Origin: a virus
IMG/VR virus record: IMGVR_UViG_3300010430_000366
Coordinates: 1-28,760 of that record
Strand: one strand, 5' to 3'
Length of the DNA: 28,760 nucleotides
Made by a program: the position numbers and the translations under genes
In this document: positions 1,789 through 21,199 of the stretch, in pieces
Layout of the letters: each line of letters opens with the position of its first letter
Numbering within the stretch: position 1 is the first letter of the stretch
The notes under the pieces: generated by a model
The model's input: only the letters and a program-made list of their open reading frames with translations
What the model was told of the DNA's origin: nothing
The model's database searches: none

Positions 1789-4700
1789 TATGTTCTCCTG
1801 TCATCACGGCGCGGCGCCCACTGCATCGTTACGCCGCGTAGCGTATGAATATCATCTGTTGTTGATGTGCTGTACAAATAAACCGAAGCGTTGGTGCCCT
1901 CGCCCTCCAGCTTTTCTTGCGGGTTGCCTGTCTTGGTCTTGTCCCAGATAAAGCCGTCCCACGCAAAGTCGTCCCAGTACCCTCCAGCGCTATCGTTAGA
2001 AAAGTCCAGCTCGTCGCCAAGATTCCAGCCGGGATCTCCAAAGTCGAACTCGACACGGCCTTTGAGCGTCAGCGCCCCGCTGAAGGTTCCATCAACCCGC
2101 GCATGGCTGTATTTTTTCATCATGCCCGGGCTCTTCGAGTGATACAGAACGGTACGCATAAAGGCGTGTACGTTATCGCCATCAAAGGTCTTGCCGAACT
2201 CCAGCTCGAAAACCTCGCCATCATCAGTGCCGACGAATATCCGCTCCGCTCCGCTTACGTCCTCACCGGAATACGCGACATTTGTGATAAACGGGTACTG
2301 CAGCGTCATGTGGCCAGCCACCTTATGCTGGTCAAAACCAATGCTGACGATGCGGCCGTCCGCGAAATAGCAGCGGTAGATATTCTCGTCGCGAATCAGG
2401 TGGCTCGCCCGGACATTTGTTGTTCTGACCAGAGACTCGACAAGCGGCTGTACCAGCGCAGACTGGGTGTTCTCCTGAAAATTCACCGATCCCGATCGCT
2501 GCGTCTGCAGCATCGAGGTAAAGCCACGATCATCAAAGAACATGCCCAGCCCGATGCGCTGCACGCTCCACTCCTGAGCGCCTGCGTTGATATTGAAATC
2601 ATCGAGATCGAAATTCGCCCTAGTGTTGCCCTGCAGCACAAAACTCTTGTTACGGGTGAAAATAAACAGGCTGTTGCCAACCTCTTCGTTGTAGCCGGTA
2701 ATCTCGTCACCGACTGCTATCTCGCTGGCCCCGGTGATCACCGTCCAGCTATGTGGGTCGCCATCGCCACTGAGCTGAGTAGAGCCGCCACGGAAACTAT
2801 AAAATAGGTGGTGGTTGTGAATAGCCAGATGTGTTGGTCTGTCATCTGCCATGCCGGTAATAACCGGCGCAAAGCCCTCGTACAGGTCATAGTATTCGTA
2901 GCCGGTGTCCTCGCCGCTGACCCAGTACAGGCGGAATCGATCGGTGGCGCCGTACAGGTTGTCCTGCCTGAACTCGTACTTACCCCCGGGCGCAAGCGGC
3001 ACTGTTACGCCAGCCGCAGTGCCTGTCGCGAAATTCGAGCCACCAACAACCCCCATCACATTAGAATTAAAGATCGCGGTGTCGGTTGGGTCGAACTCAT
3101 TGACGTATAGCGTGCCAGCCGCATCAGTACCCCACGACCCTGAATCAGTCAGCACATAAATGACGTAAGCTGATTTGCCGGTGCTGGTGTCTTCGATAAG
3201 GTCGCCCGGGCTGGGTTCGGTGCCGGTGCCGGTGTCGTACTCGACGGCCTGCATATATTCACCAACCCTACGCCAGCCAGACCCCGAGCTTTTCCAGAGC
3301 CTGCCTGCAGTGCCATCGCCGCTATCCCTGAACGCCAGCACGAAACCCTTGTGATAACAGACGCCGCGAATAGGCCCGGAGCCCGGCGGTACTGTTGGCG
3401 TGGGCGCCCCAAACTCGTTGTCGTTTCCGGGGCCTGCGCGGCCATCGGTCGGGCCGGTGCCAGAAATAGCCAGAGCTGCAGCAAGATATTGGGCATCAAG
3501 GGTGCTGTCAGCCTCACCGTTGATGACGGCCTCGCCATGAGCGGCGCCAAACCGCGTATGCAATTCGTAATACTGGTCTGGCCCTGACAAACCATTCAGC
3601 CACCTGTCAATAACTTCCAGCTCTTCACCCTCGGTGAAGCTGCCGATCGTTGTGCCTCCCAAGATCAGCGCACCAGTATTGACAAACTTTGTTGCATCCG
3701 TGGTCACTACTTCGTCCAGCTCTGCCTCAGCACCGCCCGCCGGCATAACAATGATGCGCAGGCCAGTGATATCCAAGAACTCACTGGTGCCGAGATAGAA
3801 CGTATCAATATCAGTCGAGGTTATTTCCTCGGCCATGCCGATCCAAAGTTCGCCCTTCCAGTGATGATCAAATGGATCGAACGTCACCGTGCATTTATAA
3901 ACATCCGCGCTGATTAGCTCAATCGTTTGACTCTCAATGCCACCCGGCGCGCTGCCGTTTATCAGGCTACAGACCTCACCTGAGCTAATGTTCCAGCCTG
4001 CTGTCGTGCTGTCGTGGTGGTCCCATCCAGTGCTTGTCGTTCCAGCCGTCTGAACATAGACCCCCTCACGATTTGCTGCCGTGAATTGCGTGTAGAACTC
4101 AACATAGAGCCTGTCACCCTTGCAATACCGGACCCATGCAGGCTTGACAGAGGTTATATCCATGCCCAACCAGTGGGCGGTGCTGGCGGTGTCCTCGGTG
4201 AGACGAGTAAAACTTGGGTAGATGCCAGATGTCCACGTTCCGGCGCCATCGACCGCGGTCAGGTTTTCTTGATCCCAGTAGGTTGTATTGTCGAGGTCGA
4301 GGCCATCGGTGGCGTTATGCGGGCTGGTAAATTTTTTCCACACCACCGCCATTGTGCCGCCACCATAGAATCGCTGTGAGCTAACGCCGTTCAGAACATG
4401 CCAGCTCATCGTCATGGTGGCGTCAGCCGTTGTGCAAATTTTCGTTCTCGCCCAGAGCCGCATCACGCCATCGGACAAAATCGTTACCCCGGCCGCCTGA
4501 AAGTGATCGGTCTTCGAGGTCACTACGGCATCAACCAGATTAAACTCCACCGTAGGCGCCGAGCTTGGCAGACCAAACGGATCGCCCACAGCGTTGTCAA
4601 CGGTGAACTGCATGTCTGTAGCTGAGACTCCGAAACCGCCTTTTTCATATCTTCGGACCAGCATGGACAGGTACAGAATGTCGCCAGTGGCGCAGCTAAT

Positions 4701-5291
4701 CGGATTATTCAGGGCCTGTGCCTGCCAGCCCGTGCTTGAAAAAAGCTCGATCAGTGGCAGGAAATCGAGGGTGCGGTTTTCTCCCTCCCAGTGATAGCCG
4801 AGCGATTGATCTTGAGTAACGTATAATTGGGCCGCACCGGCATTCAGGTCCCACTCGCTCGAATCAAAGGTCATGTTATGCAGCAGCACGTTCTCGCCAT
4901 AGCCGCCGCCCTGATCGGTATCAACGAGCGTGCCCATGCCACCACTCGATTTACCGCGGATCAGCCCTTGTTCCAGTGGAAACAACTTTCCGCCATGAAA
5001 CACGCTATCTTCGTAGGTTGGCTTCTCGTCGGCGCAAAATGGTAGCTTCCAGTACGCCGTTTCAGCGGCGCTGGGCCTGCCGTCGCGTGTCTCGTAGCCA
5101 CCGATGCGCTTGTAGCCGCCGGCAAAGCCAATCTCGTAATTGAGGGCGTTCTGCACCTGCCCGGGCTCGGAACTGAGGGGGCTGTCGATAAGGTTGAGGC
5201 CACCCCCGAAAGGGTAGAAATCAGAGTCCTGACGCGGAATCTGTACCAGTCGGCGCGTCTTTTCCTTTCTGGCTCGGACAAGGTTGCCCAT
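1788..5291 (-). CDS. Tail nozzle / tail-tubular-B-like protein with large inserted modules
   Basis: Large (1167 residues) virion protein. The N-terminus (FYPFGGGLNLIDSPLS, then GQVQNALNYE, GGYKRIGGYETRDGRPS) is the signature of podovirus nozzle-type proteins that sit below the adaptor and form the distal tail tube. The C-terminal half (about 640-1167) has beta-propeller-like segments (HLAIHNHHLFYSFRGG, GNSLFIFTRNKSF, GRIVSIGF, ERIFVGTDDGEVFELE). Between about 115 and 640 lies extra sequence with two modules (about 133-325 and 328-530) that resemble jelly-roll carbohydrate-binding domains, with YLSMLVRR- and RLYVEFYT-type strands. The fibre protein has similar modules. The gene begins directly after the adaptor stop (TAG-ATG). 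Assignment of nozzle is by signature and gene order; the insert function is inferred. Confidence 0.8.
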   Translation of the reverse strand: MGNLVRARKEKTRRLVQIPRQDSDFYPFGGGLNLIDSPLSSEPGQVQNALNYEIGFAGGYKRIGGYETRDGRPSAAETAYWKLPFCADEKPTYEDSVFHGGKLFPLEQGLIRGKSSGGMGTLVDTDQGGGYGENVLLHNMTFDSSEWDLNAGAAQLYVTQDQSLGYHWEGENRTLDFLPLIELFSSTGWQAQALNNPISCATGDILYLSMLVRRYEKGGFGVSATDMQFTVDNAVGDPFGLPSSAPTVEFNLVDAVVTSKTDHFQAAGVTILSDGVMRLWARTKICTTADATMTMSWHVLNGVSSQRFYGGGTMAVVWKKFTSPHNATDGLDLDNTTYWDQENLTAVDGAGTWTSGIYPSFTRLTEDTASTAHWLGMDITSVKPAWVRYCKGDRLYVEFYTQFTAANREGVYVQTAGTTSTGWDHHDSTTAGWNISSGEVCSLINGSAPGGIESQTIELISADVYKCTVTFDPFDHHWKGELWIGMAEEITSTDIDTFYLGTSEFLDITGLRIIVMPAGGAEAELDEVVTTDATKFVNTGALILGGTTIGSFTEGEELEVIDRWLNGLSGPDQYYELHTRFGAAHGEAVINGEADSTLDAQYLAAALAISGTGPTDGRAGPGNDNEFGAPTPTVPPGSGPIRGVCYHKGFVLAFRDSGDGTAGRLWKSSGSGWRRVGEYMQAVEYDTGTGTEPSPGDLIEDTSTGKSAYVIYVLTDSGSWGTDAAGTLYVNEFDPTDTAIFNSNVMGVVGGSNFATGTAAGVTVPLAPGGKYEFRQDNLYGATDRFRLYWVSGEDTGYEYYDLYEGFAPVITGMADDRPTHLAIHNHHLFYSFRGGSTQLSGDGDPHSWTVITGASEIAVGDEITGYNEEVGNSLFIFTRNKSFVLQGNTRANFDLDDFNINAGAQEWSVQRIGLGMFFDDRGFTSMLQTQRSGSVNFQENTQSALVQPLVESLVRTTNVRASHLIRDENIYRCYFADGRIVSIGFDQHKVAGHMTLQYPFITNVAYSGEDVSGAERIFVGTDDGEVFELEFGKTFDGDNVHAFMRTVLYHSKSPGMMKKYSHARVDGTFSGALTLKGRVEFDFGDPGWNLGDELDFSNDSAGGYWDDFAWDGFIWDKTKTGNPQEKLEGEGTNASVYLYSTSTTDDIHTLRGVTMQWAPRRDDRRT

Positions 5292-6044
5292 CTACAGCCA
5301 CCACTTGTTGCCGCGACCCTGTGTTTCGTCAAATCCCGGGATGTCTTGAACCAGTGGCAAGTCTTGGCTGTGCTGGTTGTCGTATTCGTGACCGATGAGT
5401 TGGTCGCCTTCGAGCTTGTCCAGCAAGAACTCGTATTCGGCTTCCATGCCGTTGATGACTTCGAGCGCCGCTTCCTTGTTGCCGTACTTAATGGCAGCCT
5501 CGCAGACGATCAGGCGATGATATTCGGCTGGCATGTGTGGCACCTGCGCATCCGTTGTTAGCAGGAGTGGAACCCTGTAGAACTCCGCTCTGAGGTCGTA
5601 TGCCGAGTCTGCTGGCACATCCAAGTACAGGATGCCCTGACGATCCTGCGTGATGATGCTTGGCTTTGAATTGCTGGGCGTTGCCCCGGCGAAGATGTCG
5701 GACCTGAATTGCTCCCAGTCCATCCATGTCAGCGGCGCGGCATTAGCGTTGTTACGCTCCAGCCAGAAACTGCGCCGGTCCCACATCTTTGGGGTATCCG
5801 AGCCAACGTGAGCGGGAGCAACGCGGCTACCTACGATCAGGGCCTCGAAGTAGGTAGCCGACAGGAACTGCCAGTCGGTGTGCAGCAGGTTCAGGTTGTT
5901 CTCTGCCTGCCGGATCCAGTTCACGGCATTCCACATCTGGCCTACTTGCGTGGTCGTGTCGGTTGGGACAGTTGCCCCTTGGTTCGCGCCGCCTATTCCC
6001 AGCTCAGTGACGAGCTGTTGTGTGAGTTCGAGAAATGTAGACAT
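5292..6044 (-). CDS. Head-to-tail adaptor (tail tubular A / gp4-like)
   Basis: A 250-residue mostly helical protein that resembles phage adaptor proteins linking the portal ring to the tail: an N-terminal helix (MSTFLELTQQLVTELGI), a VGQMWNAVNWIRQAENNLNLL segment with a following W-x-FL, a beta-region around 90-150 (with YLDVPAD), and a C-terminal helix pair around 180-215. It sits immediately before the nozzle gene, as the adaptor does in T7-like and related podoviruses. ATG at 6044 is preceded by AAAGGA at good spacing. Direct family search is needed to choose between T7 gp11-type and P22 gp4-type, which share a helical-bundle fold; I favour the former because of the nozzle neighbour. Confidence 0.75.
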   Translation of the reverse strand: MSTFLELTQQLVTELGIGGANQGATVPTDTTTQVGQMWNAVNWIRQAENNLNLLHTDWQFLSATYFEALIVGSRVAPAHVGSDTPKMWDRRSFWLERNNANAAPLTWMDWEQFRSDIFAGATPSNSKPSIITQDRQGILYLDVPADSAYDLRAEFYRVPLLLTTDAQVPHMPAEYHRLIVCEAAIKYGNKEAALEVINGMEAEYEFLLDKLEGDQLIGHEYDNQHSQDLPLVQDIPGFDETQGRGNKWWL

Positions 6045-6058
6045 GACCGCGCATCCTT

Positions 6059-6394
6059 TTAACCGCTATCGTGTGCCAGCAGGATCTCGATGTTCTTGGC
6101 CTTCGAGCCAGATCCAGACACCGGCGTCAGGCCCTGTTTCTCCATGATCGCCTTGATCTTGGACGGATGCAGGGCCTGCAGCTGTTCGCGTGTCTCGCGG
6201 TCATCTGCGGGCTCTGGTGCCGGCTCAGGAGCGGGTTCAGCCGCAACTGGTGCAGGTGTAGGTGCCGGTGCTGGCGCAGGAGCGCCTACGGGGCTGCCGT
6301 CAGCTCGAAACAGGTTGCCGTCCTGATGGTAAGCGGCTCCAGTCTGGCCGCCCACAACTACGCCATATGGCCGTGCTTTGTCGAGGCTAGTCAT
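6059..6394 (-). CDS. Small protein with Pro/Ala linker and C-terminal HeH/LEM-like helix pair
   Basis: A 111-residue protein in three parts. Residues 1-38 (YGVVVGG, AAYHQDGNLFRADG) form a short compact-looking segment found in small phage head-region proteins. Residues about 39-70 are an AP/EP-rich flexible linker. Residues about 72-111 (LQALHPSKIKAIMEKQGL, then SKAKNIEILLAH) look like a helix-extended-loop-helix or SAP-like motif, known in some phage proteins for nucleic-acid or protein binding. It overlaps the preceding gene by eight bases (ATGACTAG). No enzymatic residues are visible. It is probably a minor virion or assembly factor; the HeH reading rests on pattern only. Confidence 0.65.
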   Translation of the reverse strand: MTSLDKARPYGVVVGGQTGAAYHQDGNLFRADGSPVGAPAPAPAPTPAPVAAEPAPEPAPEPADDRETREQLQALHPSKIKAIMEKQGLTPVSGSGSKAKNIEILLAHDSG

Positions 6395-6638
6395 CGTATG
6401 GTTCTCCCATTGGGGTCCGCCAAGCGATCCCCTCTGTCAGGTTGCCCTCGCCACAATTCGGGTGCATCTGAGCGATCGGACGCCTCTCGTTGATAGCAGG
6501 GTTTGGTGTGCCCATGTCAGCGGGCTTGGGTGGGCGTTTGGGTCCGTACTCGAACGGGTGAGGCATCGGTAACTGGTTCTCCCGAAACATCTCATCCTCG
6601 GAGCCGTTGCCAAGCGCGTGTCTGGTATCTTTATCCAT
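6387..6638 (-). CDS. Small acidic/proline-rich protein of unknown function
   Basis: An 83-residue protein, proline-rich in the middle (PMPHPFEYGPKRPPKPADMG), with no membrane segment or catalytic motif that I recognise. I chose ATG at 6638 because GGAGA lies at normal spacing before it; the longer form would need TTG at 6650, inside that ribosome-binding site. The gene is the first after a strong GC hairpin that follows the capsid module, and its stop overlaps the start of the next gene by eight bases, so it opens the connector (adaptor-nozzle) block. Similar short disordered proteins occur between capsid and connector genes of environmental podoviruses, which is the only hint to its role. 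Confidence 0.65.
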   Translation of the reverse strand: MDKDTRHALGNGSEDEMFRENQLPMPHPFEYGPKRPPKPADMGTPNPAINERRPIAQMHPNCGEGNLTEGIAWRTPMGEPYDD

Positions 6639-6648
6639 CACGTTCTCC

Positions 6649-6677
6649 AAAACCGGCGCCCGGAAACCCGGGCGCCG
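6649..6677 (-). terminator. Candidate intrinsic terminator/attenuator after the capsid module
   Basis: A perfect 10-base-pair GC-rich stem (6654-6663 with 6668-6677) closes a four-base loop. On the minus strand it is followed by G and then four T residues (6652-6649). The T-run is short, and the next gene's GGAGA site begins at once, so partial termination or 5'-end protection of the downstream message is more likely than a full stop. It lies between the capsid/decoration/59-residue block and the connector genes. Confidence 0.55.
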
Positions 6678-6700
6678 TTGTGGATTTACGGTCTCACGAT

Positions 6701-6880
6701 CTACTTGATCGTGTGCCCGCGGCTGACCTTGACGCTAGGATTAGCGCCCGGCTTCTCGTTCTTACCAACAGCGTGCATACCAAGATCAGCATCGCTGGCC
6801 TTAGCAGACTCCTTGTGGCAAGTACCGGAAGCAAGTCCAGCCTTTTGCTTGCCGTCTCGCGGCATCGATTTGAAACCCAT
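6701..6880 (-). CDS. Small basic protein, 59 residues
   Basis: An open frame of 59 codons begins MGFKSMPRDGKQKAGLASG and ends GHTIK. It was found by reading the gap between the decoration-like gene and the hairpin. ATG at 6880 is preceded by GAAGGAGA at ideal spacing, which strongly supports translation. The product is Lys/Gly-rich, has one Cys (CHKES), and shows no hydrophobic segment. It follows the capsid and decoration-like genes and is probably expressed with them at high level. I do not recognise a family; a small virion-associated or nucleic-acid-binding protein would fit the charge, but this is a guess. Confidence 0.65.
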   Translation of the reverse strand: MGFKSMPRDGKQKAGLASGTCHKESAKASDADLGMHAVGKNEKPGANPSVKVSRGHTIK

Positions 6881-7309: not shown

Positions 7310-8292
7310 ACCGATGACTCCCACTTGCAGATGCGAGCTTGCACAGCATCAGCCAGATGGATAATGCCGAACCCGCCGAGGTAGTACCAAGCCACACCCC
7401 TTGACCGGCCAAAGTCCGTTGGAATCTTGCCCCGAATCTCTTCAGGGATTGCCAACGCTTCAGCTACCGTGTCCTCACCCAAGAAGAATACCCAGTCTGA
7501 CTTCGTGTTGTTCCACGGGTCCGCAGTGCGGAAGTTGTACGTTGTGGAGTCAACAGCGCCGCCCTTAGCGACATGGGTCTGCTCGGTGAAGCGAATGCCT
7601 TCGTAACGCCCGATTTCGCCGTTCATGATGAACGAGAAGCCGGTCTCGACATACTGGTGTACAGATTCGAGATCCTTGCGGAGCAGGCGGAAGGTTGTAG
7701 GACGGCCAATCGCGTAGTAGTCGTCATTCATGTACGGAGGCATATCCCGTTCTTTCATGCCGTCTACGATTGAGCCGATGTGGAGTTTCGCCATTGCGAC
7801 ATCGTTGGCGATCGTGCAGCCGCCTTCCTCGAATACGACTACTTCGACATCTGTGCCAGACAATGGCGTCACGGTTAGTGGCGTCAGGTTGAACTGGTTG
7901 AATGCCGCGCCGTCGAGCGTCTTTTTGGCGTCGTTCTTGAGTACCTTGTGAATGATTTCACTGACGGGCTGCTTCGACAGGTTGTCGAGTTTGCCGCTGT
8001 ACGGAACTGAATTACCGTATTCAGTGATCGTGAGCTGGCCTTGAGTGATCGTGTAGTTCGTCTCAGGCATTGCTTCTTGCTCGTCCAGAGCATCGCCGCC
8101 TGTCGCTACGTCGCTGTACACATTCCAGTGAAACAGCTCACCCTTGCCAAGCCCCTTGTCGGTAGCATCCTTTGCATCACAGAAGTTGCGAAAACGAACA
8201 ACGGGCTGCAGCGCAGTCCGCATGACGTTCGTCAGCTCATCCGTGTACATGTAGCCGCCGAGGGCGCTTACCGCCCAGAGTTGCCCAGCCAT
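7306..8292 (-). CDS. Major capsid protein, N4-gp56-like HK97-fold family
   Basis: 328-residue capsid protein. Recognisable segments for the N4-gp56 / HK97-fold group in environmental phages are MAGQLWAVSALGGYMYTDEL, KGLGKGELFHWNVYSDVATGG, ITQGQLTITEYGNSVPYSGK, KNDAKKTLDGAAFNQF, PPYMNDDYYAIGRPTTFR, MNGEIGRYEGIRFTEQT and the C-terminal EEIRGKIPTDFGRSRGVAWYYLGGFG. Length matches the family. It follows the scaffold gene and has a very strong AGGAGA site before ATG at 8292, in line with high expression. The stop overlaps the decoration-like gene. Nothing suggests N-terminal processing. Confidence 0.92.
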   Translation of the reverse strand: MAGQLWAVSALGGYMYTDELTNVMRTALQPVVRFRNFCDAKDATDKGLGKGELFHWNVYSDVATGGDALDEQEAMPETNYTITQGQLTITEYGNSVPYSGKLDNLSKQPVSEIIHKVLKNDAKKTLDGAAFNQFNLTPLTVTPLSGTDVEVVVFEEGGCTIANDVAMAKLHIGSIVDGMKERDMPPYMNDDYYAIGRPTTFRLLRKDLESVHQYVETGFSFIMNGEIGRYEGIRFTEQTHVAKGGAVDSTTYNFRTADPWNNTKSDWVFFLGEDTVAEALAIPEEIRGKIPTDFGRSRGVAWYYLGGFGIIHLADAVQARICKWESSV

Positions 8293-12867: not shown

Positions 12868-13412
12868 TGTTTGTCCTGATAGAAGCGGCGCCGGTTGGGC
12901 CAGTCATAGTCTGGCGTCTCAGGCAGGCCGCGGTTGAAGTTGTCGGCCAGCGTCTTGCCATCGACTGACCTGAAGGTTGGCCGCAATACAGGCAATATCG
13001 GTTGCGGCAGGAACGTCGACTTGTCATCGATTTTAGCGCTGTGGCTAAAGATGATGGTCTCATTGCCCAACATGTCGCCAAAGCGGAACGAATCGAGTAC
13101 AGCTGATTCGCTGAAGACAATGCCAGCTGTGCCGGCAATGTCACCATAAACGAACGCATCGAGCCCGCCTGACTCGCTGAATGTGATGACCTCGGCGCCA
13201 CTGATGTTGGCGTAGACGCCCGGGGCGGCTGTCTCGCCAAAGGTGATAGCGGCACTGCCTGTCGTTGACTTGAGGGCGCCCAGTGCTGCGGACTCCCCAA
13301 AGGTGATCGTCGCCGTGCCAGACATCTCGCCCGGCGTGGAGAACAGCAGTGGAACCAGAGCCAGCTGCAGGCGCTGACGCGGAAAACTGGGCCGTCTATA
13401 GACCCATGACAT
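12864..13412 (-). CDS. Protein with five short beta repeats (GxxxITFGES type)
   Basis: A 182-residue protein. After an N-terminal arginine-rich segment (residues 1-28, with LQLALVPLLF) come five tandem units starting near residues 31, 51, 71, 93 and 115. Each follows (S/G)G-x3-I-x-F-(G/S)-(E/S)-(S/T)-(A/G), spaced 20, 20, 22 and 22 residues. This regular spacing suggests a stacked beta structure such as a solenoid. The C-terminal 50 residues (FRSVDGKTLADNFNRGLP, then WPNRRRFYQDKQ) are unique and may dock it to the virion. It starts directly after the preceding stop (TAA-ATG) and overlaps the pre-portal gene (ATGA). Similar GES-type repeats are known in phage structural proteins of undefined role. 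Confidence 0.72.
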   Translation of the reverse strand: MSWVYRRPSFPRQRLQLALVPLLFSTPGEMSGTATITFGESAALGALKSTTGSAAITFGETAAPGVYANISGAEVITFSESGGLDAFVYGDIAGTAGIVFSESAVLDSFRFGDMLGNETIIFSHSAKIDDKSTFLPQPILPVLRPTFRSVDGKTLADNFNRGLPETPDYDWPNRRRFYQDKQ

Positions 13413-13862
13413 TTAGATCTCTTCCCAGCAGACCCAGCCTGACCAGCCTGTGGTGGCCCCAAGTGCTGACTGGATGTTCAGGCACAAGAATGCGCCGGCA
13501 TCCAGCGTGATCTGCATCTCGGGTGTCGGCAGGTACAACAGCGGGCCCAGTTGCTCCCACTTCCAGCCACATATGATGTCGCCTATCGTGCCCGGGGCCA
13601 GTGCCAGCTGTTCGAGAACTGCCAAACCAGTGCCCTGATCGGTGGCTGCCGGAACCTCGACCACGGCGCTGCCATTGCCGCCTGTCGATCGCCTGACCAG
13701 TCTCAGGTCAACAATCTCGGCAGTGGCGGCGTCTGATGTCAGCTCGAAGCCGTGCAGCCTGACCTTGTTAGTGACTGCGCTAATTTCCCAGACATCCTGA
13801 TCAGCATCGTTCGTGACCTGAATATCATCGAATGGCGCATAAAAGATTCTACCCTGTGCCAT
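13413..13862 (-). CDS. Beta-sandwich phage structural protein
   Basis: A 149-residue protein, nearly all beta-type: DVWEISAVTNKVRLHGFELT, then IVDLRLVRRSTGGNGSAVVE, a GLAVLEQLAL segment and a C-terminal strand set ending CWEEI. I chose ATG at 13862, with GAGG upstream and two bases after the preceding stop; the frame reaches 13931 but would overlap that gene. The 'WEI ... (F/V)EL ... R-R-S-T-G' pattern recurs in many phage genomes among head or tail surface proteins. It has no catalytic motif. Its place in a run of beta-rich genes between the fibre and portal suggests an adhesin or decoration component. Confidence 0.7.
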   Translation of the reverse strand: MAQGRIFYAPFDDIQVTNDADQDVWEISAVTNKVRLHGFELTSDAATAEIVDLRLVRRSTGGNGSAVVEVPAATDQGTGLAVLEQLALAPGTIGDIICGWKWEQLGPLLYLPTPEMQITLDAGAFLCLNIQSALGATTGWSGWVCWEEI

Positions 13863-13864
13863 GT

Positions 13865-15112
13865 CTACATCCTCAAAAGTGTGTTGTGCCGCCTGTTGTG
13901 GTACGGCAAATGTGGCTTTGCCAGCTCCCACGTAAACCAGCCCATGTGAGCATCGATTATATCCGGGGTCGGGATAACATCATTATTTTCTTGATTCTTG
14001 ATGTTTGCAACAAGGCTGGCGTGATGAGCCACTGCGGCATTTTCGCCAAAGCGAACATTGGGGACAATATCGGTATTACCGGCGTAGTCCTGCATCAGCC
14101 CGTCAGTAATATCTGAGCTGTCGCCAATGATGCGCGTCGTGTCGTCCCTGATGTGGTGACGATAAGTGCCGGCATTGTCGCCCTTGCTGATGACAGACGC
14201 GCCAAACAACATCCAGTCCCGGCTTGCGCCGCCAGTGTCAGTGGTGTGGCTGACGCTGATCGTGCCATAGTCGGTGTCCACTACCGCAATCTCGGTGTCA
14301 GTGGGATCGTGATCGATCAGGTAATCCTCGAATGCGTTCAGCCTGAGCGCAAAGATCATGCAGCGATCAATGTCATAGGTCCCTGCCACGGCATCGTCTG
14401 TCTGAAATTCCAGAGCAACGTCCGAGCTGGCAATGCCTTCGAGCGCCCACATAGAGCCCCACTGCCTGACTTCATCATTGTCCTCGCCGGTCATCTTGAT
14501 GGCCTCACCAACGATCGTGCCGTCATCGGTAAGCCTGAACAGTAGCGAGGCGCTGAAATCATCCACCAAAGTCCTGCCATAGCCGAACACCAACCAGTCT
14601 GACGCGCCATCACCGATCGTGATTGACACACCTTCAGTCCAGCCAGAATCATCCAGCCCGGTGAGGTTGGTCAGGTTCTCGGCGTCCTCGTAATCCCGGG
14701 CATCGAGATCATCGAGCTTGATTGCAACCCCATAGAAACTGATGCAACGCTGCACAGCGGACGTTCCATCTGTACGGCCTTGCATCCTGAGCCGGGCGGG
14801 TGTCGAAGGCGTCGTGTATCGATCCATCCAAAAATACATCTCACCCTTGAGACTGCTGCTATCTCTTGGCTCCAAGCGGGCCTCAGAGTCACCGATAGCA
14901 GTGCCAGTGCCGTCTTCCTCCATGCGAAAATGGAAGTCATTGCGGGCGGGGTCGTTGCCCATGATGAGCGCCGACACGATCACCATGTACTCGGTGTTCG
15001 CCTCCAGATCCGTTTCATCGATATAACAGAACGAAAAATCCGTCCAGCTATTGCTATCAACGAGTCTGCGCCACTCTTCAAACCCGATCGCATGTCCTAA
15101 CTCAGCCATCAT
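13865..15112 (-). CDS. Triplicated beta-domain structural protein (adhesin-like)
   Basis: A 415-residue protein built of three related domains, beginning near residues 42, 172 and 299. Each has a hydrophobic opening strand (YMVIVSALIM, WLVFGYGRTL, WMLFGASVIS), then a charged strand pair with DD-(G/T) and a GD/GE turn (MEEDGTGTAIGD, LTDDGTIVGE, IRDDTTRIIGD). The first two end in a C-x-(S/I)-F strand and a D/E-Y pair (RCISFYG ... DY, RCMIFALRLNAFEDY). The third lacks this end and instead has a Trp/His/Arg-rich tail (MGWFTWELAKPH). No enzyme motif was found. Repeated jelly-roll-like domains fit a host-binding or decoration protein. ATGA overlap with the upstream gene. Confidence 0.75.
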   Translation of the reverse strand: MMAELGHAIGFEEWRRLVDSNSWTDFSFCYIDETDLEANTEYMVIVSALIMGNDPARNDFHFRMEEDGTGTAIGDSEARLEPRDSSSLKGEMYFWMDRYTTPSTPARLRMQGRTDGTSAVQRCISFYGVAIKLDDLDARDYEDAENLTNLTGLDDSGWTEGVSITIGDGASDWLVFGYGRTLVDDFSASLLFRLTDDGTIVGEAIKMTGEDNDEVRQWGSMWALEGIASSDVALEFQTDDAVAGTYDIDRCMIFALRLNAFEDYLIDHDPTDTEIAVVDTDYGTISVSHTTDTGGASRDWMLFGASVISKGDNAGTYRHHIRDDTTRIIGDSSDITDGLMQDYAGNTDIVPNVRFGENAAVAHHASLVANIKNQENNDVIPTPDIIDAHMGWFTWELAKPHLPYHNRRHNTLLRM

Positions 15113-15432: not shown

Positions 15433-15729
15433 TTACCGTCTCTCGCCGCGTATCCCCACGACAAGCGTTGGCGACGTGGAGCCGTTGAGGTTCACGTACA
15501 CCCGCGTTTCCGATCTGGCCGGGAAGTCATAAATACTATCGGTAGCCGCGGTGAAGCTGGCGCCGGCTACATCTCGTGCCACACCATTACCATCAATCAG
15601 CACCAGCTTTGCCGTACCGCTATCAAAGTTGCCGCTCAGGTGTAAGTGCATTCTGCCGTAGCAGCTATGTTGGTTGCTGTTGCCATCGCCACTCAGCGTT
15701 TGCCACAAGCCGTCAGTTATCATTGTCAT
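15433..15729 (-). CDS. Small beta-rich structural-type protein
   Basis: A 98-residue protein that reads as one beta-sandwich domain: GRMHLHLSGNFDSGTAKLVL with an IDGNG turn, then ARDVAGASFTA, a short Tyr-Asp-Phe turn, TRVYVNLNGSTSPTLVVGIR. It has no catalytic residues. It overlaps the sulfotransferase-like gene upstream (ATGA) and directly abuts the next gene. The 'GTAKLVLIDGNG' pattern is common in small phage adhesin or fibre-tip proteins. The opening MTMITD matches the start of LacZ by chance only; the rest is unrelated. Confidence 0.65.
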   Translation of the reverse strand: MTMITDGLWQTLSGDGNSNQHSCYGRMHLHLSGNFDSGTAKLVLIDGNGVARDVAGASFTAATDSIYDFPARSETRVYVNLNGSTSPTLVVGIRGERR

Positions 15730-16283
15730 GTTAATCCCTCGTAGTAATCAATATCTGGCTGCAGGTAAGCGAGCAGCGCCGCCTCGGTTGCCGGGTCCAG
15801 TGATTTCACCAGCTTTGTCCACTTCACCTTTTTCCCCCCGCTAAGGTGCAGCTTGCCAAGTTTCTTGCCCGGCAGCTCCTGCCGCCACGTCTGCTTCAAG
15901 GTGTCAAACTTATACACATCGGTTGGTAGAAACTGGCCGTTATGCGTAAGCAGCTCCAGCTGCAGGGTCCAGTGCGGGTCTTTGTGGCCATCTATGATGA
16001 CCTGCGCCAGTCTCTCTGGCGTGTGGTAGCGGCGTGCGAAAAGTCGCATCATAGAGGCCATGCGGTCCCTTGGATCTCTGAACCACGCCAGTATATTCCA
16101 ACCCTCGCCGTGGCGTGTCAGCGCCTCATCGACACTAATCGATTTCGCGGCATTGTCACCAAAAACAGGCAACAAGCCCTGCACCATGCTAAATGACGCG
16201 CTGCGCCTGATGATACACACGACTTTCTGCTCGCTGGGAAGCTCGATAAACCGACCACCCGCCCTATTTAAGTGCCTTCTCAT
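15726..16283 (-). CDS. Sulfotransferase-family protein (PAPS-dependent type)
   Basis: A 185-residue protein resembling the Sulfotransfer_2-type family, which moves sulfate from PAPS to sugars or other acceptors. Visible landmarks are an N-terminal beta-strand and phosphate-loop-like segment (VVCIIRRSASFSM, about 21-33), the 3'-phosphate-binding motif WFRDPRDRMASM (67-78; R69, D70, R74 and S77), and the H-W-x-x-Q segment with VYKFDTL (about 104-129). The end (PDIDYYEGL) is also typical. The loop at 26-32 lacks the usual K-x-G-S/T-T residues, so activity is uncertain. I chose ATG at 16283, which overlaps the fibre gene stop (ATGA), so it is translationally coupled to the fibre. A glycan-modifying role on virion or host surface is inferred. 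Confidence 0.72.
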   Translation of the reverse strand: MRRHLNRAGGRFIELPSEQKVVCIIRRSASFSMVQGLLPVFGDNAAKSISVDEALTRHGEGWNILAWFRDPRDRMASMMRLFARRYHTPERLAQVIIDGHKDPHWTLQLELLTHNGQFLPTDVYKFDTLKQTWRQELPGKKLGKLHLSGGKKVKWTKLVKSLDPATEAALLAYLQPDIDYYEGLT

Positions 16284-18934
16284 TGCACGCCCTCGTGGAT
16301 AGCTGTGCCTATGCGGTTGCCGATAGCCCGCCCAGACGAGCGGCCAAACCGCCGCATGTCGCCCGTCCTGCTGGTGACAGACCACTCGCTTAACGTCGCG
16401 TTGCTAACGCGCTCGTTGAATATCTGCAGCCTCACCAGCAGCGTGTTGACCTGCTCCAGATCCGCGTGATCACTGCCGATATTCATATCCGTGACAGACG
16501 GGATGCTGGCAGCTCCGTCGACACCCATCTGCACGCCATTGAGATAAGCCGCGATGTCGCCTGTGTTCCAAGCCACGGCAATCACAAGGCGTGTTCCCTC
16601 CAGCCCGGTCAGGCTGGCCGTGATGTCCCACTGCGTTGTGGTGTTAACGCCGATGAAGTGCAGCGTTGAACCGATGACCTCCAGTGCAATGCGGGCCGTG
16701 GCCGAACTGTACAGGCTGACGATCGTCTTGTCGTCGTAGAAATACTTCGGGCACTCCAGCTCTATGAGTAGCGAATGCGCGCTGCCGCTAAGATCTGACA
16801 GGTCATCGGTTGTGACCACATCAGGCTCCGTCGTGTAGTTTGTCGAGCCCGTCAGAAACTGGGTCACATACAGGGGCTCACCAACATAAACCTGCCAGCC
16901 GCCCCACGTATTAGCGTAGTCATCAGAGTATGGCATCACCCGGTCGCCATCGGCTTCCGCGAGGGCCACAACCCAGTCTGCCGTCGTGTCTACGCCGTCT
17001 GACGTGAACACGGTCTCAATGCGATAAAAGCGATCGATCTCTCTGCTGACGTTGATCTCGGTAACATCAGCGCCAACCGTGCCAAGGTTGCCGTCGGCGT
17101 ACTGAAAATAAAAGCCGATGTCCGAATCGTAGTTGTCCAGCCCGATATAACCCCAGTCCGTCCACCCCGGGATAACCAGAATGTTCGGGTCGAATACCCA
17201 GACGTGGCCGCTCATGGTGTACAGCGTGGATGTTGCCAGCGTCAGCGGTTGGGCAACCTTTGACTCGCCCGGCCCGCCAACATCGAGCGGGTCAAGTCTA
17301 TTGCCACCGTAAAACGGCTTTGCCTGCCACGTACCGTCATCTTGGATAGTGTCAATACCGACAGCGGCTGTCCACGGCGCAATGCTTGGATTCACGCTGT
17401 TTATGATGAGCGTCGTGCGGGCTGGCTCTACGATCAGACCCTGCCCAAGGTGGCTGATGCCTTGGCTGAAATCACACTCACTCTCATACCATGTTAGGCC
17501 ACTGTCGCGGATATATGGGAGCTGGGCCTCACCGCCCACAATCATTAGCGATGACAGTGTAAAGTTGCCAGTGCTGGGCGTGCCATCAGCACCGAGCCCA
17601 AAATACACCCCGGGTAGCGCGGCGGGCGCAATTACCCTGAAGTCCAGTCGGCGCTTACCATCTGGCTGCAGCCTGAAGTCCTTGATGTAGAACTTCTGGC
17701 CATCGGGATAGAAATAGTCGTCACCCCAGCCCCAGTAGAAATTGTCCACGAAAACAACTGGCGTGCCCGGGTCTTCGACGCACTCCTCCAACCAGATCGA
17801 ATACAGGCTCGTGGCGAACATTGGGTGTGCCCAGTCATAGCCGGGCGCATACCAGTGATAGGCCGTTTCGTTGGTGCCAACAAACCTCATGGCATTCTGA
17901 TCGTGGCCATCGACGCCACGCTTTGACCCCTGAAACAAAAACTGGGTGCTGGGTGGTTTGCCGTTGACCGGCCAGCCCAGCTTGCTGGCAACAGGAATGG
18001 CATCGCCCGTCTGGCCTGCTGGGTAATCCCAGTAATATCCGTAGTAGTCACTTGGTACTGCGGTGTTTTGCACCGCACCAAACATCTCGCTGTTAATTAC
18101 CTCGTTTCTGGTGTGCCGCGTGGTGTAGTAGACGTGCTGCCGGATCGCGCCAGTGTGCCCGGGCCACAGCCCGCGCTCGTTGTAAGAGTGGTCGGATGAG
18201 CCAGAACTTGACCAAAGCTCATCGATGACCAGCGTATCACCACTGCCGATATACTGCTGATCGGCAAGATCCGGCCCGCCCGCAATACCAAGCCTGTAGT
18301 TGAGCTGACCGCCCCGAAAAGTCACACCAATCCGGAGAAATATCCAATCGCCAGCCGGGTCTGGCTCATAGATTGCGCTGTTGATCCCCCATGCGTCCCA
18401 GTTCTGAGCGCCTATACCTGAATCTACGGTAAATACCCGATCCTGCAGGTCGAAAATAAACGTCCGATCCGACCGCGACGGCACGGTGTCATCGTTTGTG
18501 ACAAACACGTACCGGGCCGTGCTGGCGGTGCGGTTGATCTTCAGGATGATATCTTGGCTCATAAACTTCAGCGTAAGACTCGTGAGGTAGTTGATGGGTT
18601 GTGTTAAGACATGCTGGGCGTCGGTAGCATCGTCGGTGATGGTCCATGCCGCGTTCGCACCACCCCGATAACCTGTTTCGTCCTTGGCAACGGTGACATT
18701 GGTCTTTGTCCATAGCACGTCATTCAGATCATCTGAGTGCCGGAACCAGTTGTCGCTCATGTGGAAGCCCTTAAACTTTGGGATGTTCTCGGCTACATAA
18801 TGGTTGTACTTAGAGTGATCTGGACACCAGCCAAACTGATCGTTGCGCGTGAAGGTCAGCGTGGGTCCGCGGCCTGCAATGGATCTAAGGTCAGGTTGGA
18901 CGGTCCAATCGTACTCGATCGCAGGTACTGGCAT
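16280..18934 (-). CDS. Tail fibre / adhesin-like protein with C-terminal LamG-like domain
   Basis: An 884-residue modular protein. The N-terminus (FTRNDQFGWCPDHSKYNHY) resembles the start of phage fibre proteins that carry repeated jelly-roll modules. Several such modules follow (for example NWFRHSDDLNDVLWTKTNVT, near 62, then NEVINSEMFGAVQ). Residues about 510-535 (LGQGLIVEPARTTLIINS) match the 'LIE-x-xRTNL' linker pattern of many phage fibres. The C-terminal part (about 712-850; IALEVIGSTLHFIG, RLVIAVAWNTGDIAAYLNGV) is a LamG/concanavalin-like sugar-binding domain. ATG at 18934 has AGGAG upstream. It lies before the sulfotransferase-like gene (ATGA). It probably recognises host surface glycans; polymerase or depolymerase motifs are absent. 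Confidence 0.8.
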   Translation of the reverse strand: MPVPAIEYDWTVQPDLRSIAGRGPTLTFTRNDQFGWCPDHSKYNHYVAENIPKFKGFHMSDNWFRHSDDLNDVLWTKTNVTVAKDETGYRGGANAAWTITDDATDAQHVLTQPINYLTSLTLKFMSQDIILKINRTASTARYVFVTNDDTVPSRSDRTFIFDLQDRVFTVDSGIGAQNWDAWGINSAIYEPDPAGDWIFLRIGVTFRGGQLNYRLGIAGGPDLADQQYIGSGDTLVIDELWSSSGSSDHSYNERGLWPGHTGAIRQHVYYTTRHTRNEVINSEMFGAVQNTAVPSDYYGYYWDYPAGQTGDAIPVASKLGWPVNGKPPSTQFLFQGSKRGVDGHDQNAMRFVGTNETAYHWYAPGYDWAHPMFATSLYSIWLEECVEDPGTPVVFVDNFYWGWGDDYFYPDGQKFYIKDFRLQPDGKRRLDFRVIAPAALPGVYFGLGADGTPSTGNFTLSSLMIVGGEAQLPYIRDSGLTWYESECDFSQGISHLGQGLIVEPARTTLIINSVNPSIAPWTAAVGIDTIQDDGTWQAKPFYGGNRLDPLDVGGPGESKVAQPLTLATSTLYTMSGHVWVFDPNILVIPGWTDWGYIGLDNYDSDIGFYFQYADGNLGTVGADVTEINVSREIDRFYRIETVFTSDGVDTTADWVVALAEADGDRVMPYSDDYANTWGGWQVYVGEPLYVTQFLTGSTNYTTEPDVVTTDDLSDLSGSAHSLLIELECPKYFYDDKTIVSLYSSATARIALEVIGSTLHFIGVNTTTQWDITASLTGLEGTRLVIAVAWNTGDIAAYLNGVQMGVDGAASIPSVTDMNIGSDHADLEQVNTLLVRLQIFNERVSNATLSEWSVTSRTGDMRRFGRSSGRAIGNRIGTAIHEGVQ

Positions 18935-18936
18935 TT

Positions 18937-19179
18937 CTAACTCCTGTTGGCATCATCCATCACGGCAATGGTGGACCAATGCCTGCCGGTGTCGCCGGCG
19001 TTCGTCTTCGCCTCTTTGGCAGCCATGCGAATCCACTGCTGCAGCTTGAGGGCGTCGGTGTAGTGCATCCTGAGCGTGCTGTTGCCGATCTGGATGACGG
19101 TGGTCTCACCCTCGGCATAGGCTTTGACGTCCTGCCTGTGCCTGAGCCCGCCAGTGAACTCGTGGCCGTTCTGTTTCAT
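18937..19179 (-). CDS. Small basic protein of unknown function upstream of the fibre
   Basis: An 80-residue charged protein (HEFTGGLRHRQDVKAYAEGE, then a short beta pair TTVIQIGNSTLRMHY and a helix ALKLQQWIRMAAKEAK). It has no membrane segment. ATG at 19179 shares bases with the preceding stop (TGATG), and its own stop lies two bases before the fibre ATG, so it is coupled to both. The strand-strand-helix layout, with 'IGNSTLRMHY', occurs in small phage proteins near fibre genes. A fibre assembly helper is possible, but nothing in the sequence proves it. Confidence 0.65.
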   Translation of the reverse strand: MKQNGHEFTGGLRHRQDVKAYAEGETTVIQIGNSTLRMHYTDALKLQQWIRMAAKEAKTNAGDTGRHWSTIAVMDDANRS

Positions 19180-19445
19180 CAGCTCGGTGTGACCTGCGTA
19201 GCTCCAAGTCCGTCAATCAGGGTCCAGTCATCAGTAGCGTCTGGGCCATCCGCCACGTACATCAATTTGAGCGTAGATTCATACACCCGCCTGCCGAGAA
19301 ACTTGTCCAGCGTGTTGATGCGAGCAGTCGCGTCAGCCAGTTCCGCGGTCGTCGCGGTCGGGAACATCACCTCTTCAAATTCCTCTTTGTTGACGGTGAC
19401 ATACGCTGCGATCGTTTTCAGGTCTAATCTGCTTCCACTTACCAT
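19179..19445 (-). CDS. Small tail-region protein with NT-x-KFxGRxV motif
   Basis: An 88-residue protein with an N-terminal helical part (TIAAYVTVNKEEFEEVMF) and a C-terminal beta part (INTLDKFLGRRVYESTLKLM, DDWTLIDGLGATQVTPS). The 'NT-x-x-KF-x-GR-x-V-x-(D/E)-(S/T)' pattern, followed by W-x-(L/I)-x-DG ... TP, is one I recall in short phage proteins adjacent to fibre genes, where it may form a trimer or linking segment. It begins 12 bases after the preceding stop and ends in a one-base overlap with the next gene. Its function has not been assigned. Confidence 0.65.
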   Translation of the reverse strand: MVSGSRLDLKTIAAYVTVNKEEFEEVMFPTATTAELADATARINTLDKFLGRRVYESTLKLMYVADGPDATDDWTLIDGLGATQVTPS

Positions 19446-19457
19446 TGCGCTCTCCTG

Positions 19458-19901
19458 TTATGTGACGCTGATGTCGAGCTGGCCAGCCTTGAATCGTGGC
19501 TGCACGCCTGAGCTGACATCGAGGGATGGGGATACGGCGCCATAGATCTGCAGGTATCCGGTCGAGGATGCCGCGGAGCCCAGCCCGAAGTAGGTCTCAG
19601 TCTCAGAGCCGCCCGTGGCCTCGGGGAACAGGATCTCGTTATCGTTGTCCACGTTGCCCGTGGCGACCGTCCACTCAGCAACCGACCTAGCGACCGCCAC
19701 CCGGGCGTAAGACGTGTAGGCGGCCTCTGACTGGTCCTGATCAGTGTGTGCGTCATTGAGTGTGGCCGTGTGCAGGCTGGCGTAGATTGAGCCGACCGTG
19801 CCGGCAGGTTGCAGGCCACTGGCATCGCCCCAGTTCGGCGCCTGAACATTGGTGAACATCAGGTCAAGCAGGTCGTCTTCGAGCTGGTTAGTGGCTGGCA
19901 T
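19458..19901 (-). CDS. Phage tail/fibre-associated beta-sandwich protein
   Basis: A 147-residue protein with a widely seen phage layout: an N-terminal helix (NQLEDDLLDLMFTN), then SIYASLHTATLND, an E-AAYTSYARVAVAR segment, a W-TVATG ... NDNEILFPEATGG segment, a YFGLG strand, and a C-terminal GAVSPSLDVSSG ... P-x-FKAGQLDI end. This is the layout of small fibre-like or tail-tip proteins ('YARV ... W ... N ... I-x-FP-x-A ... P-x-F-x-x-G-x-L'). It starts inside the last codons of the preceding 39-residue gene and leads the fibre gene cluster. A host-recognition or connector role is likely. Confidence 0.75.
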   Translation of the reverse strand: MPATNQLEDDLLDLMFTNVQAPNWGDASGLQPAGTVGSIYASLHTATLNDAHTDQDQSEAAYTSYARVAVARSVAEWTVATGNVDNDNEILFPEATGGSETETYFGLGSAASSTGYLQIYGAVSPSLDVSSGVQPRFKAGQLDISVT

Positions 19902-20450: not shown

Positions 20451-20711
20451 ATGCAACTGCAACGATACCGCGAAGAACTCCTCAAGGGCGCCCGGCCTGC
20501 GCTGGTCGTCAATGAGGGTCGCAAGTGGATGCAGGTGCTGGTTGTCGATCACGGCAAGCTACGGATGGTCCGTCGCCCGTTGACTGAGAAACAGCACATG
20601 ACACCATTGGCAACAAATGAGCGCAAAGCGAAAGCGAGCTTCAGACGCATGGCCAAACGCCGCGGCACGCCGCGCAAGGTAAGAGAGTTTCTAAAGGAGG
20701 CGCTTGCATGA
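20451..20711 (+). CDS. Small basic protein, first gene of the plus-strand operon
   Basis: An 86-residue basic protein. The first half has beta-type segments (ARPALVVNEGRKWMQVLVV, then GKLRMVRRPL); the second half is a charged helical region (NERKAKASFRRMAKRRG, then RKVREFLKEALA). No catalytic motif was seen. ATG at 20451 has a near-perfect AAAGGAGG site, and its stop overlaps the next ATG (ATGA), so the two products are made together. The basic helical end could bind nucleic acid. As part of a regulated cassette with a peptidase-like partner, it may be a cofactor, substrate or inhibitor of that partner. I do not recognise a family. Confidence 0.75.
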   Translation: MQLQRYREELLKGARPALVVNEGRKWMQVLVVDHGKLRMVRRPLTEKQHMTPLATNERKAKASFRRMAKRRGTPRKVREFLKEALA

Positions 20712-21199
20712 AGCTACACCCCACCAAGACCACCGGCAAGCATCCGCTCTGGTGCGGGCCGTCTGCCCTGTCGATCATGACCGGGCGCACGGTCAACTAC
20801 TGCGCCAAGCTGGTAGCTGATCGCCGCAACCGCCGCGGCTGGCACCGAGGCCGCGGCACCTCCAAGCAGGTCAAGGGCGTCGACAACCTAGAGATGCGGC
20901 TGGCCCTCAAGAAGATGGGCTACCGCATGGTGGTTGTTGATGTGCCGAAGCTGAATCATCGCCATCAGGTCATGAGCATCAACCCCGAGCCCTTTGTGCA
21001 GCCAACGCTGTTCCAATACATGAGCGCCCGGGGCGGACCCAACTGGAAGAAGACCATGCTGCTCGAAGTCACTGGTCACTATGTCGTGGTCAACCGGGAC
21101 ACCGTGGCCGACAACCGCACGCCGCTGGGCTGCCACTACAGCAAGTACCGCTGGAAGAAGATGCGAGTGCGGGAGGCTTGGTTAGTCACCTCGATGTGA
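20708..21199 (+). CDS. C39/papain-like cysteine peptidase candidate
   Basis: A 163-residue protein with a cysteine-peptidase layout: the nucleophile motif WCGPSALSIMTGR near the N-terminus (C16), a later TGHYVVV strand (H124), and a VADNRTP segment (D135/N136) as the third residue. This Cys-Gly-Pro-Ser/Ala ... Gly-His-Tyr ... Asp-Asn order is the C39-like and papain-like pattern, and short phage proteins of this kind are known to me only as uncharacterised. A usual oxyanion Gln before the Cys is not obvious (H12 is at that place). The core is basic. No signal peptide is seen, so it would act in the cytoplasm. It could cleave a host or phage protein, or be an inactive fold. A strong GGAGG site overlaps the previous gene and a terminator follows at once. 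Confidence 0.65.
   Translation: MKLHPTKTTGKHPLWCGPSALSIMTGRTVNYCAKLVADRRNRRGWHRGRGTSKQVKGVDNLEMRLALKKMGYRMVVVDVPKLNHRHQVMSINPEPFVQPTLFQYMSARGGPNWKKTMLLEVTGHYVVVNRDTVADNRTPLGCHYSKYRWKKMRVREAWLVTSM

Follow-up and report, generated by a model that had tools for sequence, protein, structure and literature searches.

A strongly diverged sulfotransferase-like gene within the spike/fibre operon of a podovirus-like phage

The DNA that we analysed, hereafter the window, comprises an entire IMG/VR record (28,760 bases) and represents part of a podovirus-like phage genome. Within it we recognised the terminase subunits, the portal, the major head protein and the adaptor. The portal and the head protein have relatives in environmental contigs, and distant relatives of the portal also occur in Vibrio and Escherichia phages. 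The late genes of the record lie on the minus strand, and one of their blocks contains a gene for a 185-amino-acid sulfotransferase-like protein that shares four bases with the gene on either side. The features of this locus are:

15726–16283, minus strand: sulfotransferase-like gene, 185 amino acids, start codon ATG at 16283–16281 and stop codon TGA at 15728–15726 (from coding statistics, profile–profile match and structure)
16280–18934, minus strand: upstream spike/fibre gene, 884 amino acids (NCBIfam NF048003, phage head spike fibre domain)
15433–15729, minus strand: downstream 98-amino-acid gene, without family match
19458–19901, minus strand: gp80-like fibre I/head protein gene of the same block (PF23140, E = 3.1e-16; phrog_240 head protein, E = 6.1e-13)
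16280–16283, minus strand: ATGA overlap between the spike/fibre stop and the sulfotransferase-like start (from sequence)
15726–15729, minus strand: second ATGA overlap, between the sulfotransferase-like gene and the 98-amino-acid gene (from sequence)
16290–16294, minus strand: GAGGG, likely ribosome-binding site of the sulfotransferase-like gene, within the 3' end of the spike gene

The minus-strand frame at 15726–16283 is a genuine coding frame. It contains no in-frame stop, the remaining five frames contain 4 to 11 stops each (the plus strand of the interval among them), and its codon log-odds are +0.10, compared with –0.14 to –0.73 in the other frames. Five small genes nearby, with codon scores of +0.07 to +0.29, are positive like the sulfotransferase-like gene. 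The original prediction, made from the sequence alone, had the coordinates of the gene right, and the gene sits on the minus strand. It had also reported an ATGA overlap with the tail fibre gene; this overlap, with the 884-amino-acid gene, is real, and the further one with the 98-amino-acid gene had gone unmentioned. Because residues 61–171 of the 884-amino-acid protein match the head-spike-fibre domain NF048003 with E = 5.3e-8 and 33.6 bits, slightly below the 36-bit cut-off, the 'tail fibre' is better named a spike/fibre protein. No relative of this protein was found in viral contigs or phage records, and it had no match among PDB sequences. Among the 23 junctions listed in the gene block, 5 carry a four-base ATGA of this kind, so the junction between the spike and sulfotransferase-like genes is not special and marks a compact late operon. 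We therefore rejected the overlap as proof of joint function, since an ATGA joins the gene to the 98-amino-acid gene as well. At 19179–19445 on the minus strand lies an 88-amino-acid late gene with a weak match (E = 4e-4) to phrog_2725, which carries an acetyl-CoA acetyltransferase label and is probably a mislabelled structural family.

The motifs on which a sulfotransferase identity had been proposed are all present in the 185-amino-acid protein:

16185–16208, minus strand: RRSASFSM, residues 26–33, counterpart of the 5'-phosphosulfate-binding loop (P-K-x-[GA]-x-x-S), aligned in register
16050–16085, minus strand: WFRDPRDRMASM, residues 67–78, counterpart of the 3'-phosphate-binding motif (R69, S77)
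15960–15974, minus strand: HWTLQ, residues 104–108, with Q108 invariant in the family
15897–15917, minus strand: VYKFDTL, residues 123–129, counterpart of the family [IV]-G-[RK]-x-E segment

Here we take the loop and the RxPxDRxxS motif to be the 5'- and 3'-phosphate sites, respectively. Library searches with the protein were negative: no sulfotransferase match was obtained in Pfam, PHROGs or NCBIfam, no sulfotransferase family appeared in Pfam at E-values up to 1, and a sequence search of the PDB returned one chance antibody match and no sulfotransferase. The protein falls below the gathering cut-off of PF03567 (22 bits), and for this reason we treat it as a diverged relative of the lineage and not as a member of the family. 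Searches for closer relatives gave a similar picture. A tblastn search of 50,697 phage records found no relative, and peptide-pattern searches yielded 4 candidates in viral contigs and 50 in genome contigs, with no confirmed homologue in either set. Two degenerate-motif scans of viral contigs returned, respectively, one match, at a place with no sulfotransferase-like frame, and eight matches, seven of them frames of at most 56 amino acids and the eighth an unrelated 523-amino-acid protein. Two sets of 398 genomes each, one drawn from the phylum to which a Lysobacter genome belongs and one from that of a Stappia genome, yielded no relative; the sets consist largely of the same genomes, and an empty answer from them carries little weight. 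Six further genomes or records gave weak matches alone, in three of the six (best E = 0.03). Across the record, contig and genome searches we found no homologue close enough for a test of selection on the protein.

We then compared the protein with a reference family gathered by a degenerate motif resembling its own. This motif occurred in at least 116 stretches, of which the 80 listed were used; of the 80 proteins extracted, 74 passed a length filter and 51 a redundancy filter, and all seven reference proteins that were scanned proved to be PF03567. In HMMER searches with the 51-protein profile, the sulfotransferase-like gene ranked first among the window frames but with E = 0.05, and in a wider frame set it came second, behind a chance match, with E = 0.75. 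When the single 185-amino-acid sequence was aligned to the 51 bacterial sulfotransferases with hhalign, the probability was 80% (E = 1.4e-5, score 39.5, 133 columns), and the phosphate loop, the RxPxDRxxS motif and HWxxQ...KFDTL all fell in register. None of 200 shuffled sequences reached this score (maximum 24.9), the reversed sequence scored 17.9, and 26 other window proteins, a control that omits the three of at least 600 amino acids, scored at most 16.4. Since a query-like motif had served to gather the reference family, we masked the RDPxDR block; the score was then 30.9, which none of 100 masked shuffles reached (maximum 17.8). Keeping the block and shuffling the rest gave at most 28.7 in 150 trials, and 20 unrelated frames with a similar motif gave at most 13.5. 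The 200 shuffles and the 26 window proteins show that the motifs exceed chance, and the masking and the further controls indicate that the resemblance extends along the protein.

To compare individual residues we used an alignment, A1, of the query with 50 of the 51 sulfotransferases, one truncated protein having been left out. R69, P71, D73, R74, S77 and Q108 are invariant in all 51 rows of A1. The 3'-phosphate-binding motif, RxPxxRxxS, is present, with R69 and S77 aligned to residues that are invariant in 50 of 50 homologues. The 5'-phosphosulfate loop had been described as non-canonical, and this description holds: the homologue loop is mostly P-K-[TV]-[GA]-x-x-S and the query reads R26-R27-S-A-S-F-S, with S32 kept, R-R in place of the usual P-K and the canonical Lys absent. 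Position 27 is Lys in 44 of the 50 homologues and Arg, as in the query, in the other 6. The family Gly is replaced by Y124 and the family Glu by D127. In A1, H58-G59 of the query lie at the HGH site of 25 of the 50 homologues, and the query lacks the second His; we take HGH to be the catalytic histidines of heparan 2-O-sulfotransferase. The spacing from loop to motif is 42 residues, compared with 38–75 (mostly 60–67) in the homologues, and that from motif to Q108 is 39 residues, compared with 46–75. Given the changes of the loop Lys to Arg, Gly to Y124 and Glu to D127, the enzyme could be altered or inactive; an enzyme that remains active but has changed in specificity is a plausible reading of these residues.

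AlphaFold, given the 185-amino-acid sequence alone, produced a model with a pLDDT of 38.2; with alignment A1 the pLDDT was 86.9 and the pTM 0.83. As the latter model leans on an alignment made of sulfotransferases, it shows compatibility with the fold and is not independent proof. In VIA-align the best solved chains for this family-guided model were two of heparan sulfate 2-O-sulfotransferase (Z of 8.8 and 8.7, rmsd of 3.7 and 3.8, over 155 and 158 residues), a Z near 8.8 being modest by that program's own note, followed by heparan sulfate 6-O-sulfotransferase (Z of 8.6, rmsd of 4.2, 163 residues). The remaining rows shown were sulfotransferase-type entries, one of them a retinol dehydratase, with Z of 7.4 downward. 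In a Foldseek search of the PDB the first eight rows were all sulfotransferases (best E = 0.076), and tyrosylprotein sulfotransferase first appeared at rank 40. Among viral models four reached E = 0.001, namely gp5.1 of phage SIO1, which was the best (E = 8.3e-5), a Ralstonia phage sulfotransferase-like protein, an uncultured phage sulfotransferase and one nameless protein.

An HMM search against the Sulfotransfer families had been suggested as a check on the identity, with a lack of any match in profile or structure comparison counting against it. The library profiles gave no match, which is literally half of that adverse outcome, and the matches in custom profile–profile and structure comparison, which are more sensitive, overturn it. 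With the standard libraries silent, the custom profile–profile test and the family-guided model support a sulfotransferase, and we consider it very probable that the product of 15726–16283 is a PAPS-dependent sulfotransferase of compact size, strongly diverged but of common descent with the Sulfotransfer_2 (carbohydrate sulfotransferase) lineage. With the bacterial PF03567 proteins and the heparan sulfate 2-O- and 6-O-sulfotransferases it shares the order and spacing of the loop, RxPxDRxxS, Q108 and [IV]x[RK]x[ED], and its family-guided model is compatible with their fold over residues 16–185. It differs from them in its low identity (12–20%), its lack of a Pfam match, its R-R for P-K, its Y124 and D127, and its shorter length.

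Our searches brought up sulfotransferases in six other phages, which are thus not a random sample, and we compared their gene contexts with that of the query. Two of the six lie near fibre or baseplate genes. One is gp5.1 of Roseobacter phage SIO1 (NC_002519, 4688–5254, minus strand, 188 amino acids), the second annotated gene after the tail fibre gene; the other, in P-SSM7 (NC_015290, 17127–17717), is annotated as galactose-3-O-sulfotransferase and overlaps a baseplate hub gene by one base. The remaining four lie elsewhere: those of Pelagibacter phage Mosig and S-SRM01 have glycosyltransferase genes nearby, gp47 of CBW1004C-Prop1 lies between a hypothetical gene and head genes, and that of Stenotrophomonas phage DLP6 lies in a replication block. 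The idea that homologues always neighbour a fibre gene is rejected on these six contexts. The genes of CBW1004C-Prop1, DLP6, Mosig, P-SSM7 and S-SRM01 (the last a Sulfotransfer_3/Sulfotransfer_1 protein) belong to the same superfamily as the query and likewise reside in tailed phages; unlike the query they are recognised by profiles, and their surroundings differ from its own.

SIO1 gp5.1 is the best viral structural match to the query. A tail fibre gene belongs to the same gene block, and we take the phage to be a podovirus, like that of the query. The SIO1 protein is annotated only as gp5.1 and is missed by a Pfam scan. By profile it is a sulfotransferase, with an hhalign probability of 97% (E = 1.8e-11) to the family profile and E = 5.5e-11 to A1. 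Unlike the query, it has a canonical PKTA loop and an RNP motif, and it is separated from the fibre gene by one other gene, with a gap in place of an ATGA overlap. A BLAST comparison of gp5.1 and the query was not significant (E = 0.19), and hence their closeness rests on the models and the shared profile.

The closest sister contig that covers this region, L002, has a portal 77% identical and a head protein 94% identical to those of the window. It carries a different spike cassette, preceded by a peptide deformylase gene, and has no counterpart of the sulfotransferase-like gene, which is accordingly dispensable for the lineage. When we searched the frames of 35 loci with phmmer, the 185-amino-acid protein found only itself. 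PF03567 was found in none of 14 and none of 19 contigs from relatives of the phage, many of them fragments; this absence from 33 contigs is weak, because PF03567 does not detect the window gene either. A Pfam scan of 52 open reading frames from the relatives' fibre regions, again with many fragments, gave no sulfotransferase, and single matches each to peptide deformylase, a polysaccharide lyase and PAPS-reductase. The suggestion that enzyme and fibre act together is not borne out by the overlap with the 98-amino-acid gene, the 5 of 23 like junctions, the sister phage that lacks the gene or the varied contexts in the six other phages; a functional link between the gene and the spike is unproven and not general. 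In L002 the deformylase gene (2183–2680) lies directly before the spike-position gene, forming another enzyme-plus-spike cassette. The spike/fibre-position proteins of L002 on the plus strand (2760–4985, 4988–5734 and within 5544–6749) start, by eye, with signal-peptide-like stretches (e.g. MKNSCFKYTFLACCFFVFSVACEA), which is unusual for virion proteins.

How might such an enzyme serve the phage? From the observed layout, the gene would be translated late as a cistron of the spike/fibre operon, through the overlap and its own GAGGG. No signal peptide is seen by eye in the 185-amino-acid protein, which is therefore expected to work in the cytoplasm, and because none of the window proteins that we scanned with Pfam could be recognised as PAPS-synthesising, PAPS would come from the host. 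Transfer of sulfate from PAPS is known chemistry, and the protein would bind PAPS and catalyse this transfer. The acceptor that we find likeliest, if tentatively, is a sugar of a host surface polysaccharide or of its lipid-linked precursor, because sugars are the substrates of the closest solved folds and because glycosyltransferase genes lie near two of the phage sulfotransferases (Mosig and S-SRM01). Late in infection, sulfation of the host glycan would alter the receptor for progeny or competing phages, and progeny would then neither adhere to dying cells or debris nor superinfect. Phage enzymes that modify receptors do exist, and a benefit of this kind is suggested by analogy with such enzymes in general. 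The whole explanation, a cytoplasmic, late PAPS-dependent sulfotransferase that modifies a host envelope glycan, is the reading that we favour, though at slightly less than even odds.

The gene might instead have an auxiliary metabolic or an anti-defence role, its enzyme sulfating a host metabolite or lipid or draining PAPS, and its place beside the spike would then be accidental. Phage sulfotransferases do occur in varied places, including the replication block of DLP6 and the head block of CBW1004C-Prop1, and we found no counterpart in the relatives that we examined, as cargo would predict; the gene, however, lies tightly inside a late structural operon and not in a cargo spot between transcription units, and we regard this account as unlikely. 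We judge it slightly less likely still that the same enzyme sulfates a component of the virion during assembly, such as the neighbouring spike, a small decoration protein or an attached glycan. Such a target would suit a gene flanked by the spike gene and by further small late genes and joined to both neighbours by ATGA overlaps, its product being made where and when spikes are, and SIO1 gp5.1 and the P-SSM7 sulfotransferase also lie by fibre or baseplate genes. Against it, ATGA overlaps are common here, four of the six other phage sulfotransferases lie elsewhere, and glycan sulfotransferases come first in VIA-align, with tyrosylprotein sulfotransferase only at rank 40 in Foldseek. The specific proposal that the enzyme made with the spike sulfates the virion itself (the spike or its glycan), the added sulfate tuning receptor binding, we consider very unlikely. 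If virion sulfation were true, other sulfotransferases linked to fibre genes, SIO1 gp5.1 among them, would count as additional examples.

An inactive protein, its sulfotransferase fold now serving the spike assembly in binding or as a structural component, would fit the change of Pro-Lys to Arg-Arg in the loop, of Gly and Glu to Y124 and D127, and the shortened core; the 3'-phosphate residues R69 and S77 are retained, however, and the fact that 6 of 50 homologues likewise have Arg in place of the Lys also speaks against it, making it quite unlikely. That the gene encodes an unrelated late protein with a chance resemblance in its motifs would explain the lack of matches in Pfam, PHROGs, NCBIfam, PDB sequences and annotated phages, but is highly improbable, as three separate blocks align with their order and spacing preserved and the shuffles, reversed sequence, motif-keeping shuffles and 26 neighbours score far lower.

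Phage sulfotransferases are already known, and the gene at 15726–16283 is a diverged variant. Passages of PMC10580990 (2023) report them as auxiliary genes and call their function in phage genomes unclear, and parts of PMC13079714 and PMC8290583 also treat them as auxiliary genes. Sulfotransferases acting on lipopolysaccharide exist in bacterial hosts, an example in a passage of PMC12445080 being lpsS of Sinorhizobium meliloti. The 'PAPS' genes of CSP3 and vB_PmaS_Y8A were rejected as comparators, as passages in their papers describe PAPS reductases. Our literature searches found no paper with the phrase 'phage-encoded sulfotransferase' and none that joined 'Roseobacter phage SIO1' and sulfotransferase. 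The divergence of the window gene, so great that standard annotation says unknown, suggests that such enzymes are undercounted, and gp5.1 of SIO1, a long-studied marine phage, is likewise missed by Pfam. The position in a spike operon provides a concrete, testable setting for what phages sulfate.

Two other genes of the window have counterparts in L002. The gene at 7324–6908 (138 amino acids) is represented there by two tandem copies (13186–14002), 87% and 78% identical to it. At 20708–21199 on the plus strand, in the orientation opposite to the late genes, a 163-amino-acid protein without a Pfam match contains WCGPSALS, GHYVV and a later Asp and resembles, by eye, a papain/C39-like cysteine protease; its gene is kept in L002 (1009–1608).
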